From an uncultured Pelagibacteraceae bacterium (lineage in GTDB: Bacteria; Pseudomonadota; Alphaproteobacteria; Pelagibacterales; Pelagibacteraceae): 64,000 nt of DNA. Where the stretch lies: the NCBI GenBank assembly GCA_902581405.1, contig CACHOJ010000006.1, positions 1 to 64,000 of the forward strand, given 5' to 3'. Positions 15,346 through 33,894 of this stretch are shown in pieces (positions within the stretch are counted from its first letter, which is position 1; each line of letters starts with the position of its first letter). Position numbers and translations under genes: made by a program. The notes under the pieces are model-generated. The model did not search any database and was not told the origin of the DNA. It saw only the letters and a list, made by a program, of their open reading frames with translations.

Positions 15346-16716
15346 ATGAAGTATGTAAGTACAAGAAATAATTCTAAAGAATATAGTTTTGAAGAGGTTT
15401 TCATCAAAGGTTTAGCTGATGACGGGGGACTTTATGTGCCTACATCTTTAAAAAAATTCAGTTCAGATGAATTGTCAGAGCTTAAAAATCTTAATTATAA
15501 TGATTTATCTACTGAAATAATAAATCAATTTTCATCAGACTTTATTTCAAAAGATGATCTTACATCATTAATTAAAAAATCTTATTCAACTTTTAGAGAA
15601 AAAGAAGTTGTTAAAATATCAAACATTGGAGATCTCAAATTATTAGAGTTATTTCATGGTCCTACATTAGCTTTCAAAGATGTGGCAATGCAGTTTATTG
15701 GTAACTTATATGAATATTATTTAAGTAAAAATGATAAAAAAATTAATATTGTTGTAGCAACTTCAGGTGATACTGGTGCTGCCGCTATAGATGCAATTAA
15801 AGGCAAATCAAACTTAAATATTTTTGTCTTACATCCTAATAATAGAATTTCACCAGTGCAAAGAAAGTTAATGACAACCGTAGAAGACAAAAATGTTTTT
15901 AATATTGCAATTGACGGAAATTTTGATGATTGCCAAAATATTGTTAAGCAAATGTTTTCGGATTTAAATTTTTCTAAATCAATAAATATGTCAGGGGTTA
16001 ATTCTATTAATTGGGCAAGAATAATTGCTCAAGCAGTTTATTATTTTTATACTTATTTTAAAATTAATGAAGATAAACCAATTTCCTTTTCAGTGCCAAC
16101 TGGAAATTTTGGAGATGTCTTTGCTGGATATCTTGCAAAAGAAATGGGATTACCAATAGACAAGCTAATCGTTGCAACTAATGAAAATGATATTTTGCAT
16201 AGAGCGATCTCTAATGGTGATTATATTTCTAAAAAAGTTAAAGAAACACTTTCTCCAAGTATGGATATTCAATTAGCAAGTAATTTTGAAAGATTAATTT
16301 ATTATGTGAATAATTCTAATTCTGACATTACATCAGATATAATGAAAAAAGTTAAGTATAATGAATATAAAATAGAAAAATCAAACTTAGACATTATCCA
16401 AAAAGATTTTATTTCAGAAAGTTGTGATGAAAATGAAACTTTAGAAATTATTAAAAAAAATTTTGAGATAAATAGTATCATATTAGATCCCCACACTGCA
16501 GTTGGAGTAGGAGCTGCAAATAAGCTTAATTTAAATGATTGTGTAGTTTTATCTACTGCTCATCCATGCAAATTTCCAGCTGCAACAGATAAGGCTATAA
16601 ATAAACATGAAGAACTACCTATAGAGCTACAATATGTCCATAGTAAAGAGGAAAATTTTCAACTATTAAAAAATGAAGCAGAGGCAGTTAAAAATTTCGT
16701 TAAAAGTAAATTATGA
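15346..16716 (+). CDS. thrC: Threonine synthase
   Basis: 456 aa; MKYVSTRNN, HGPTLAFKDVAMQF PLP-lysine motif, ATSGDTGAAA. Confidence 0.95.
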   Translation: MKYVSTRNNSKEYSFEEVFIKGLADDGGLYVPTSLKKFSSDELSELKNLNYNDLSTEIINQFSSDFISKDDLTSLIKKSYSTFREKEVVKISNIGDLKLLELFHGPTLAFKDVAMQFIGNLYEYYLSKNDKKINIVVATSGDTGAAAIDAIKGKSNLNIFVLHPNNRISPVQRKLMTTVEDKNVFNIAIDGNFDDCQNIVKQMFSDLNFSKSINMSGVNSINWARIIAQAVYYFYTYFKINEDKPISFSVPTGNFGDVFAGYLAKEMGLPIDKLIVATNENDILHRAISNGDYISKKVKETLSPSMDIQLASNFERLIYYVNNSNSDITSDIMKKVKYNEYKIEKSNLDIIQKDFISESCDENETLEIIKKNFEINSIILDPHTAVGVGAANKLNLNDCVVLSTAHPCKFPAATDKAINKHEELPIELQYVHSKEENFQLLKNEAEAVKNFVKSKL

Positions 16717-17198
16717 AGTTAAAAGTAAACGATCAAATCCCTGACGTAAAAATATTCCATTTAGTTGATGGTGAACCTAAGGAACAAAATATATCTGAGG
16801 TATTAGGATCAAAAAAAATATTATTATTTGGTTTACCTGGTGCATTTACAGCTACATGCTCTAAATTTCATTTACCAGGTTACGTTAAAAATGCTCAACA
16901 AATCTTAGATAAAGGTATTGATAAAATATTTTGCCTAGCTGTTAATGACCCTTATGTAATGAATGCTTGGGGTGAAGCGAATAGTATAGGAGAAAATATA
17001 AATATGTTAGCTGATCCTTATTTGTCATTTACTAAGCTTATTGGTGCTGAAGTTGATAGAAACTCAAAAGGTATGGGAATGAGATCAAGCCGTTATGCAA
17101 TGGTTATAGAAAATCTTCAAGTTCAAAATATCCAAGAGGAAGAGGAAACTAAAAATTGTAGAGTATCCTCTGCAGAGGGAATTTTAGGTATTATTTAG
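16713..17198 (+). CDS. Peroxiredoxin (Prx5/AhpC-TSA family)
   Basis: 161 aa; LFGLPGAFTATCSKFHLPGY catalytic Cys motif. Confidence 0.93.
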   Translation: MKLKVNDQIPDVKIFHLVDGEPKEQNISEVLGSKKILLFGLPGAFTATCSKFHLPGYVKNAQQILDKGIDKIFCLAVNDPYVMNAWGEANSIGENINMLADPYLSFTKLIGAEVDRNSKGMGMRSSRYAMVIENLQVQNIQEEEETKNCRVSSAEGILGII

Positions 17199-17206
17199 CA
17201 AGACGA

Positions 17207-17225
17207 GGCGTTCTGTTGCCATGTG
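17207..17225 (+). repeat. Copy 1 of direct repeat GGCGTTCTGTTGCCATGTG
   Basis: 18/19 identical by eye to 17824..17842. Confidence 0.8.
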
Positions 17226-17226
17226 A

Positions 17227-17664
17227 CTATTTTCTTTTTCCTTTATAAATATTTTTTCCAAACCTATTATTTTTTTTGTCCCCACCTGTACAATAAAGCA
17301 CCAATAAATATATATACAATCCTAAAGATATAACTAAAAATACAAGCGACAAACCCTCCGAAGATTTTTCGGTTAAACGCTCCATTATATCAAAAGGCAA
17401 AGGAAGTAAAATAAACCATCCGCTTTTATTAATATCATGTAATCTCCTGACAGTGACTGCAATACCAGGGATTATCATTGCAAGAGCGAATATTGAAATT
17501 GTTCCGATAAATAATTTTATTGAAATAAATATCGTAGATATAGAAATTGCATAACCAAATGCGAGAAATAAATAAAAAAACCAAAATTCAGATCTAGATG
17601 CTCTACCTTTGAAATTAGCATATTTGTCTTTTACACATGTTTTTATTGCATTTTTAAAATTCAT
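17227..17664 (-). CDS. DUF805 family membrane protein
   Basis: 145 aa; FKGRASRSEFWFFYLF, RRLHDINKSGWFILL signatures. Confidence 0.88.
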   Translation of the reverse strand: MNFKNAIKTCVKDKYANFKGRASRSEFWFFYLFLAFGYAISISTIFISIKLFIGTISIFALAMIIPGIAVTVRRLHDINKSGWFILLPLPFDIMERLTEKSSEGLSLVFLVISLGLYIYLLVLYCTGGDKKNNRFGKNIYKGKRK

Positions 17665-17684
17665 AAATCTTCCATTATTAAATG

Positions 17685-17698
17685 GGCGTTCTGTTACC
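17685..17698 (+). repeat. Copy 2 of the repeat, GGCGTTCTGTTACC
   Basis: 13/14 identical to the core of copies 1 and 3; embedded in GGGCGTTCTGTTACCCGG. Confidence 0.75.
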
Positions 17699-17745
17699 CG
17701 GCAATAGAATAGAAAATAGCATATTTGCTCGTTTTATCAAAATAC

Positions 17746-17778
17746 TTCATTGAAACTTCATTGAATCTTCATTGAACT
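17746..17778 (+). repeat. Three tandem 11-mers (consensus ACTTCATTGAA)
   Basis: Read directly: acttcattgaa acttcattgaa tcttcattgaa. Confidence 0.8.
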
Positions 17779-17796
17779 TTATTTAAAGAAAACAAG

Positions 17797-17805
17797 TGTG
17801 GATAA
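17797..17805 (-). promoter_or_regulatory. Perfect DnaA-box sequence (TTATCCACA on the minus strand)
   Basis: Plus strand reads TGTGGATAA; function unknown. Confidence 0.4.
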
Positions 17806-17823
17806 GGGAATCCTTTAATAAGG

Positions 17824-17842
17824 GGCGTTCTGTTGCCAGGTG
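17824..17842 (+). repeat. Copy 3 of direct repeat GGCGTTCTGTTGCCAGGTG
   Basis: 18/19 identical by eye to copy 1. Confidence 0.8.
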
Positions 17843-17847
17843 CTCCG

Positions 17848-18270
17848 TTAGGAGTTTGCAGCTCCTCTAGCAATTAAATCTACTTCGTTGTTTAAAACAT
17901 CACTTGAGTGACCCTTAACCCAGTTCCATTTTATCTTAAATTCATTTGTTAGATTATCCAGTTCAGTCCAGAGCTCTTTATTTTTAACTGGTTGTTTATT
18001 TGCAGTTTTCCACCCATTTTTTTTCCAATTATGTATCCATTCAGTTATTCCTGATTTCACATATTTAGAGTCTGTGAAAATCTGAACACTGCTTCCTTTA
18101 GGAATTTTTTTAAGAGCTTTAATTGGAGCAAGCAACTCCATTTGATTATTTGTGGTATCTTTTTTGCTACCCTTTATCTGAATTTTTTTTTTATCATCAA
18201 TAATAATTGCAGCCCATCCACCATTTCCTGGATTACCTAAGCACGATCCATCAGTATAGATTTTTATCAT
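17848..18270 (-). CDS. rnhA: Ribonuclease HI
   Basis: 140 aa; IYTDGSCLGNPGNGGWAAI, NNQMELLAPIKAL, WNWVKGHSSDVLNNEVD. Confidence 0.96.
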   Translation of the reverse strand: MIKIYTDGSCLGNPGNGGWAAIIIDDKKKIQIKGSKKDTTNNQMELLAPIKALKKIPKGSSVQIFTDSKYVKSGITEWIHNWKKNGWKTANKQPVKNKELWTELDNLTNEFKIKWNWVKGHSSDVLNNEVDLIARGAANS

Positions 18271-32749: not shown

Positions 32750-33819
32750 TTTGTAGGTCTTAGTCTTTGTCGTAAATCATCAATTGGCTTTAAAGAATTT
32801 CCAGATTTATAATGCCAAAATGTCCATCCATTACAACTTTCTGCACCAATAATTTTTGCTGCCACTTTATGGATTGATCCTTCTGATTGTTGATATTTTA
32901 TACTACCATCTATCATAATTTTTGCATTTACTTTTTTCTTTTGGTCATAAATTTCTGTTCCAGGTTTAATCAGACCCATTTCAACTAATGATCCGAAAGG
33001 AATTCTTGGTTTAGTTCTGTTATTTTGTAAAGTATCTAGATATTCATCTTTTATGATATTTGTATTCTCTAATCTTTTCTTAGCAGCATCGAAATAATAT
33101 TTTTCTTTTTCAATTCCAAAATAATTTCTACCTAATTTTTTTGAAACAACAGCTGTAGTACCGGATCCTAAAAATGGATCCAAAATGAAATCATTTTTGT
33201 TTGATGAAGCTAATATTATTCTATGAATTAAAGACTCTGGCTTTTGTGTAGAATGAACTTTTTTTCCATTTTTTTTTAATCTTTCTTTTCCATTACAGAT
33301 TGGGAAATTCCATGTGGATCTCATCTGCAGGTCATCATTTAAACATTTTAATGATTGATAATTAAAAGTATATTTGGATTCTTCGCTTTTTGAGGCCCAA
33401 ATAATCGTTTCATGTGCATTGGTAAACCTCGTTCCTCTAAAATTTGGCATTGGGTTATTTTTATTCCAAATTACATCATTTAGTATCCAAAAACCCAGAT
33501 TTTGGATCGTAGTACCAACTCTAAATATATTGTGGTAGCTACCTATAGCCCAAATTGTTCCATCCTTTTTTAAAATTCTTTTACATTCTTTTAACCACTC
33601 AAAAGTAAATTCATCATAGCTTTTAAAACTTTCAAATTGATCCCATTTATCATTAACAGCATCCACTTTAGATCTATCCGGTCTTCTTAATTCTTTTTTT
33701 AATTGAAGGTTATAGGGAGGGTCAGCGAAAATAAGATCAAAAGTTTCGTCAGGAATTTTTTTTAATTCCTTTAAACTGTCTCCATTAATAATTTTATTTT
33801 TTAAAGTTTTAACACTCAT
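32746..33819 (-). CDS. ccrM: CcrM-type adenine-specific DNA methyltransferase (predicted GANTC)
   Basis: 357 aa; DLIFADPPYNLQLK, DPFLGSGTTAVVSKKLGRNYFGIE; C-terminal extension with NGWTFWHYK typical of CcrM. Confidence 0.92.
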   Translation of the reverse strand: MSVKTLKNKIINGDSLKELKKIPDETFDLIFADPPYNLQLKKELRRPDRSKVDAVNDKWDQFESFKSYDEFTFEWLKECKRILKKDGTIWAIGSYHNIFRVGTTIQNLGFWILNDVIWNKNNPMPNFRGTRFTNAHETIIWASKSEESKYTFNYQSLKCLNDDLQMRSTWNFPICNGKERLKKNGKKVHSTQKPESLIHRIILASSNKNDFILDPFLGSGTTAVVSKKLGRNYFGIEKEKYYFDAAKKRLENTNIIKDEYLDTLQNNRTKPRIPFGSLVEMGLIKPGTEIYDQKKKVNAKIMIDGSIKYQQSEGSIHKVAAKIIGAESCNGWTFWHYKSGNSLKPIDDLRQRLRPTN

Positions 33820-33832
33820 TTTTTAAATATTA

Positions 33833-33861
33833 ATTAGACTCCAGAGAAGAGTCCGCGTCAA
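33833..33861 (-). promoter_or_regulatory. Predicted sigma70-like ccrM promoter TTGACG-N17-TCTAAT containing two GANTC sites
   Basis: Minus strand TTGACGCGGACTCTTCTCTGGAGTCTAAT; -35 at 33861-33856, -10 at 33838-33833; GANTC at 33837-33841 and 33849-33853. Confidence 0.6.
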
Positions 33862-33894
33862 CCTGTGATTGAATTATTTTGAGACTACTTGTTG

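Follow-up and report, generated by a model that had tools for sequence, protein, structure and literature searches.

A three-core array between prx and rnhA

The window analyzed here, a 64,000-nt stretch of contig CACHOJ010000006.1 from an uncultured Pelagibacteraceae bacterium (GCA_902581405.1), carries a peroxiredoxin gene, prx (16713..17198, plus strand), which converges on rnhA, the gene for RNase HI (17848..18270, minus strand). Between these two genes, which we read as the right and left host flanks, respectively, of a secondary integration site, lies a gene for a 145-aa DUF805 membrane protein (17227..17664, minus strand; PF05656, E = 4e-24). Pfam matches to DUF805, Redoxin, RNase H, APH, and LytB bear out the gene identities given in the initial annotation of this DNA.

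The gap also holds three copies of the motif GGCGTTCTGTTRCC, all in the same orientation (17207-17220, 17685-17698, and 17824-17837). No further copy was found in the window with up to two mismatches allowed, and dinucleotide-shuffled versions of the window averaged 0.07 copies and never reached three. Extended to 25 nt on the minus strand, these copies constitute three cores: core copy 1 at the prx-side junction (17207..17231; TAGTCACATGGCAACAGAACGCCTC), starting 9 nt from the prx stop at 17198; core copy 2 at the internal junction (17685..17709; CTATTGCCGGGTAACAGAACGCCCA); and core copy 3 at the rnhA-side junction (17822..17846; GGAGCACCTGGCAACAGAACGCCCC), with one mismatch against the tmRNA 25-mer described below and with the rnhA stop (17848, minus strand) directly past it. 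The outer pair had been described earlier as near-identical direct repeats placed after the prx stop and by the rnhA stop, and both the positions and the identity (18 of 19 nt) hold. The third copy, previously called diverged, is indeed present, roughly 20 nt 5' of the DUF805 start, although its 14-mer matches fully (R = A) and it is the flanks that diverge.

The array therefore comprises two cassettes, a gene-less att element with a 139-bp repeat unit (cassette 1; 17710..17823, minus strand) and the DUF805 cassette (cassette 2). Cassette 1 consists of a right arm, CTTATTAAAGGATTCCCTTATCC, followed by iterons and a left arm. The iterons are three 11-bp direct repeats (TTCAATGAAGt; TTCAATGAAG three times) at 17745..17779 on the minus strand, 45 bp from core copy 3, and are candidate integrase arm-type sites. 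The left arm, of the D type (17700..17740, minus strand), includes a promoter-like element, TTGATA-16-TATTTT with TG before the second hexamer, which is a consensus match only; it points through core copy 2 into DUF805, and the number of such matches is within the shuffle range. Similar left arms were found at four other loci (L123, L219, L353, and L363).

The repeat copies the 3' tail of tmRNA

The 25-nt repeat is a copy of the 3'-end hairpin of the host permuted tmRNA gene. The source assembly (1.12 Mb, 78% complete) contains four occurrences of the motif, the three in the window and an exact one on contig C9, and this last copy is the final stretch of the permuted (two-piece) tmRNA gene, recognized both by ARAGORN (tag ANESYALAA) and by Rfam (alpha_tmRNA, RF01849, 227.7 bits), whose consensus itself ends ACCuGGCAACAGAA. 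Besides the window copies, the tmRNA gene is the only place in the host genome with an exact copy of the repeat. Since the C9 copy is the tmRNA 3' end, the natural reading of the repeat is on the minus strand, GGGGCACCTGGCAACAGAACGCCCC, which forms a 25-nt hairpin with a GCAA loop. No Rfam RNA was detected at the window copies themselves. A second SAR11 family has a different tmRNA tail (GGGAGGCACCGGGCAACAGAAGTCTCCC), and it is this sequence that is repeated at L257, the only two-core locus seen in that family, which indicates that the core sequence follows the host tmRNA. Elsewhere in the window, Rfam matched a bablM sRNA (RF01784, 49.6 bits) at 33816-33885 on the minus strand, a motif first described from Pelagibacter.

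A hairpin of this kind could act as a bidirectional transcription terminator between convergent genes, in which case the repeats would be terminators and the enclosed gene incidental. The predicted stability of the GCAA-looped 25-mer (-11.8 kcal/mol, z -2.5), the T run that follows it in its own tmRNA, and the position of bare cores between convergent rnhA and prx in relatives all fit such a role. However, only weak folding is predicted for the window copies (-4 to -6 kcal/mol), no terminator was detected there, and termination leaves unexplained the hybrid cores, the arms that cassettes share and their iterons at a constant distance, the single orientation of the cores within each array, and the precise empty and filled sites presented below. 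We regard this reading as very improbable.

Empty and filled intervals in related genomes

The rnhA-prx interval was classified at 95 loci. A short gap with no core was present at 40, including a deep clade in which the two genes overlap or abut, while 16 had a single bare core (a bare attB) in a gap of 34-37 nt, 22 carried an insert between the genes, and 17 had prx out of reach, 12 of these keeping a core. Among the 22 filled intervals, ten were without a recognizable core, seven had one, three had two, one (the window) had three, and one had four. On an rnhA tree covering 78 of the 95 loci, with state labels assigned by us and loci with prx out of reach counted as filled, the filled state required 15 changes, at least nine of them forced by supported branches. 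As in additive islands, the number of repeat-bounded inserts at this one locus varies across strains, with gain and loss repeated.

Two genomes are particularly instructive for the window. Genome G147 (locus L217) has an empty site, in which the rnhA stop is followed by the core and then by prx, the gap being 36 nt, and prx is 98% identical to that of the window; it exemplifies the single-repeat sites without DUF805 that a comparison of relatives had been suggested to look for. Genome G031 (L013/L355), the sister of the window, has the same core and iteron-bearing right arm, with a cytosine methyltransferase instead of DUF805.

Hybrid cores and the point of exchange

Alignment of the window with the empty G147 site (L217) revealed that both flanks are shared exactly at the core edges. 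At the rnhA end the window reads rnhA-TAAC-core-cassette, and at the prx end it reads cassette-GGCAACAGAACGCC-TCGTCTTGCTAAATAATACC-prx; comparison of these junctions with the empty site demonstrates that both host flanks are intact. Core copy 1 is a hybrid, its left half being cassette-derived and its right half, together with the TCTTGCTAAATAATACC flank, host-derived and matching the empty-site flank of L217. This pattern extends to other strains. Many host cores end in CTGCCC, not CGCCCC, and in filled loci the host right half, CTGCC, was present in 5 of 7 prx-side cores versus 0 of 21 rnhA-side cores (p = 2e-4; tally by eye), while the host left half, GGTRCACC, remains on the rnhA side at five loci (L225, L234, L235, L239, and L360). 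These reciprocal hybrid cores place the strand exchange within CACCTGGCAACAGAAC. Reciprocal hybrid junctions are a classical mark of conservative site-specific recombination, and here they fall within the core and are accompanied by empty attB sites in relatives.

Taken together, the chimeric junction cores, the arms, and the iterons point to site-specific integration rather than duplication. The earlier proposal of a repeat-bounded, locally inserted DUF805 cassette is supported by the empty sites, by the alternative cargo, and by the genome-wide counts given in the next section, whereas the duplication-mediated origin offered alongside it is not favored. Local duplication, or an exchange of segments by homologous recombination between the tmRNA-derived repeats, draws some plausibility from the high recombination rates reported for SAR11 (PMC2217521), but efficient RecA exchange requires more than 25 bp, the cassettes are mostly unrelated in sequence, and their boundaries are exact; such an origin is scarcely credible.

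On this sequence evidence, we favor the explanation that small, non-autonomous integrative cassettes with a tmRNA-tail core use the prx-rnhA gap as a secondary attachment site, and we give the explanation as a whole a probability of roughly 0.8. The primary attachment site would be the tmRNA tail. Comparison of the loci shows that cassettes integrate by a conservative, reciprocal exchange inside the core, which makes the core at either end a hybrid, that they stack in one orientation, and that they are repeatedly gained and lost. Their cargo is a single gene or a few genes, DUF805 here and restriction-modification systems, secreted enzymes, and others elsewhere, and no recombinase was detected in them. 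Once a cassette is excised, the core at rnhA would stay behind as a bare attB. A phage, an island, or a host gene would provide, in trans, a tyrosine recombinase that acts on the core, and the 11-12-bp iterons found about 45 bp from the core in some cassettes would be its arm-type binding sites or those of an accessory factor. As expected of integrative elements, direct repeats of the 3' end of an RNA gene bound the insert; the target in the window is rnhA-prx, not an RNA gene. The points that count against this explanation are that no integrase was found, that iterons occur in about 5% of right arms and are lacking in the DUF805 cassette, and that 10 of the 22 filled intervals are coreless.

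Arrays, cargo, and arms across SAR11 genomes

Of 119 genomes of the genus with a completeness of at least 85% (the source genome, at 78%, being included with them), 113 contain the exact 19-mer CACCNGGYAACAGAACGCC, and the reversed-pattern control gave 0. By our count, 41 of these genomes carry at least two copies. With usually 1-4 motifs per genome, and four in the source genome, the repeat does not occur at the hundreds of unrelated intergenic sites that would have marked it as a generic element. Public contigs matching the repeat are titled Pelagibacteraceae, Pelagibacterales, or Ca. Pelagibacter. Core copies cluster in one orientation at spacings of about 100 bp to several kb, forming arrays of 2 to 6 cores, and they recur at the tmRNA tail, at rnhA-prx, at a PNPase-ketoacyl synthase locus, at an M23-peptidase locus, and at an ABM-domain locus. 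Arrays adjoin the tmRNA gene in five cases (L036, L038, L039, L040, and L353). The same core with cassettes was also observed at the PNPase locus (L309, L312, L313, L321, and L362), the M23 locus (L319 and L352), and the ABM locus (L310, L311, and L314), and a five-core array was observed at a MatE/SNase locus (L035).

We collected 95 distinct core-to-core segments, with a median length of 754 bp and mostly under 2 kb, of which 20 contain no ORF of at least 80 aa, 44 contain one, and 31 contain two or more. The cassette ORFs are strongly biased in strand, 106 being opposed to the core orientation and 17 not (p ~7e-17), and the 123 ORFs form 85 families. Their Pfam names include Tsp45I, Mrr, DpnI, C5 and N6/N4 methylases, trypsin, polysaccharide lyase, inverse autotransporter, and glycosyltransferase, and the restriction-modification cargo was further backed by PADLOC.

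Homologues of DUF805 are patchy, occurring in 27 of 201 genus genomes, and many rnhA-prx intervals are without the gene; it is thus far from being an invariable resident of this interval, the condition under which an insertion would have been doubtful. Core-bounded cassettes contain relatives at rnhA-prx (L360, 32%), at the M23-peptidase locus (L352, 58%), and within a tmRNA array of five cores (L353, 36%), and this presence at three different loci identifies DUF805 as recurrent cargo. The cassette system itself does not depend on DUF805. Three divergent strains (L331, L337, and L349) have a DUF805 gene beside rnhA with no detectable core and with prx undetected in the stretch fetched; these coreless genes are possibly decayed cassettes.

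Tandem 11-12-bp repeats were present, under a strict rule, in 16 of 310 right arms (~5%), all starting 41-59 nt after the core, compared with 6 of 1409 windows placed further downstream and 1 of 6200 shuffled arms (p = 2e-8). The iterons of cassette 1 recur in L013 and L028, and none were found in the DUF805 cassette itself. This subset of arms therefore has the short tandem direct repeats, of period 11-12 and at a fixed distance from the core, that are characteristic of the attP of an arm-binding tyrosine integrase. In position and spacing the iterons presumably resemble integrase arm-type sites such as those of the lambda P' arm, and they may be binding sites of this type for the recombinase or its accessory factor.

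Search for the recombinase

None of the core-bearing loci was found to encode an integrase of its own in searches with an HMM of SAR11 integrases, which could miss divergent ones; the elements would thus be non-autonomous, or their recombinase too divergent. Viral records carrying a 23-mer of the repeat contain no integrase either, and the 23-mer matches in IMG/VR, considered as leads to a phage helper, were rejected because they represent the phages' own permuted tmRNA (tag ADENLALAA) and not an attP. The tmRNA of these marine phages (viral contigs L085-L092) ends in the exact SAR11 25-nt tail, so that a phage could in principle carry an attB-like site into the cell. Matches to shorter cores were dismissed as chance hits to GC-rich phages; an integrase is present in one GC-rich phage record that has a 16-mer match, and this match also looks like chance. 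Searches of viral and phage records for the iteron patterns returned nothing or unrelated coding matches only, BLAST of the arms against INPHARED gave E ~1 or worse among the matches listed, and no viral or phage record searched held the core together with the arms. Larger SAR11 integrases (446-513 aa) were discarded as helpers, there being no core within about 9 kb of them. No circular excised form was visible in the assemblies. Given that neither a recombinase in the cassettes nor a phage record with core and arms was found, we infer an integrase acting in trans.

One host protein is a candidate. Nearly all Pelagibacteraceae genomes carry, at a fixed locus by an MGMT gene and sugar genes that vary, a single-copy 317-aa tyrosine recombinase (for example, at L075, 1456-2409, minus strand). 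Most of the genomes have no other PF00589 protein, and the resemblance of this one to XerD is only distant (73-81 bits, the cut-off being 330). Pelagibacteraceae may have replaced the usual Xer pair. The near-universal, single-copy presence of the 317-aa protein at a fixed locus would suit a dedicated cassette integrase, and hence a chromosomally resident, integron-like system. Against this, the second SAR11 family is without the gene, has two XerC/D-like proteins, and still has one two-core array; no XerC/XerD pair was found beside the 317-aa gene, so the protein may instead be the chromosome-dimer resolvase; and its length leaves no arm-binding domain, a poor fit with iteron-bearing arms. 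We therefore consider this assignment unlikely.

Relation to known systems

SAR11 bacteria, which rank with the most abundant cells in the ocean, have very small genomes, and the variable regions of these genomes were reported to lack integron signatures. A short sequence marking the exact points at which single genes enter, stack, and exit would account for some of the gene differences between strains, those in secreted enzymes and restriction-modification among them. A single search string would allow the cassettes to be catalogued in metagenomes, and the question of the missing recombinase is now well posed. Searches of openly accessible journal papers turned up no account of SAR11 cassettes bounded by tmRNA tails, and such repeats go unmentioned in 'Ecogenomics of the SAR11 clade'. 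New features are the derivation of the core from the tmRNA tail, the use of this core away from RNA genes, and the occurrence of the system in SAR11.

The arrays resemble integrase-less integron arrays (CALIN) in their small cassettes, single orientation, strong gene-strand bias, and recombinase in trans. They differ from CALIN in that the site is a 25-nt tmRNA tail, with no attI or integron integrase and with extended arms on the cassettes. No attC-type R''-L''-L'-R' box pair (RYYYAAC...GTTRRRY) was apparent by eye in the 25-mer and arms, no integron integrase (intI) was recognized, as the SAR11 tyrosine recombinase scored 26-28 bits against the TIGR02249 cut-off of 265, and Wilhelm et al. 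found no attC signatures at SAR11 variable regions (PMC2217521). A broader proposal is that SAR11 owns a genus-wide integron-like platform unrelated to attC/IntI, in which cassettes with a tmRNA-tail site, each carrying one gene or a few, form stacked arrays at several fixed loci, and in which the recombinase, whether resident or infectious, acts in trans; we advance it tentatively, as a possibility that is somewhat doubtful at present.

Tycheposons of Prochlorococcus and Methylophilaceae share att sites at RNA-gene ends, tyrosine recombinase logic, and cargo variation, but they measure 4-200 kb (PMC10872708) and encode a tyrosine recombinase; the much smaller SAR11 units are not large elements of this kind, and none was found to have a recombinase of its own. 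Genomic islands and prophages also integrate in tmRNA genes, using the tmRNA 3' end as attB (reviewed in PMC11915505), and are, unlike the SAR11 cassettes, large and equipped with their own integrase.

The closest precedents are the additive islands with tRNA-end repeats of Methylophilaceae and Actinomarinales. In 'Ca. Actinomarinales', small cassettes that terminate with a directly repeated portion of a tRNA gene accrete at hot spots (PMC7771536); there, in contrast to SAR11, the tRNA genes lie within a sugar island, and the phylum is a different one. In 'Ca. Methylopumilus', additive flexible genomic islands contain repeats of the last 20 nt of tRNA-Lys and inserts from 330 bp up (PMC10872708), so that in both cases streamlined aquatic bacteria have inserts of variable content bounded by copies of an RNA-gene 3' end. 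Whereas 'Ca. Methylopumilus' uses a tRNA end at one island, the SAR11 core is the tail hairpin of a permuted tmRNA at several non-RNA loci, and the SAR11 system additionally features iteron-bearing arms and gene-less att elements.
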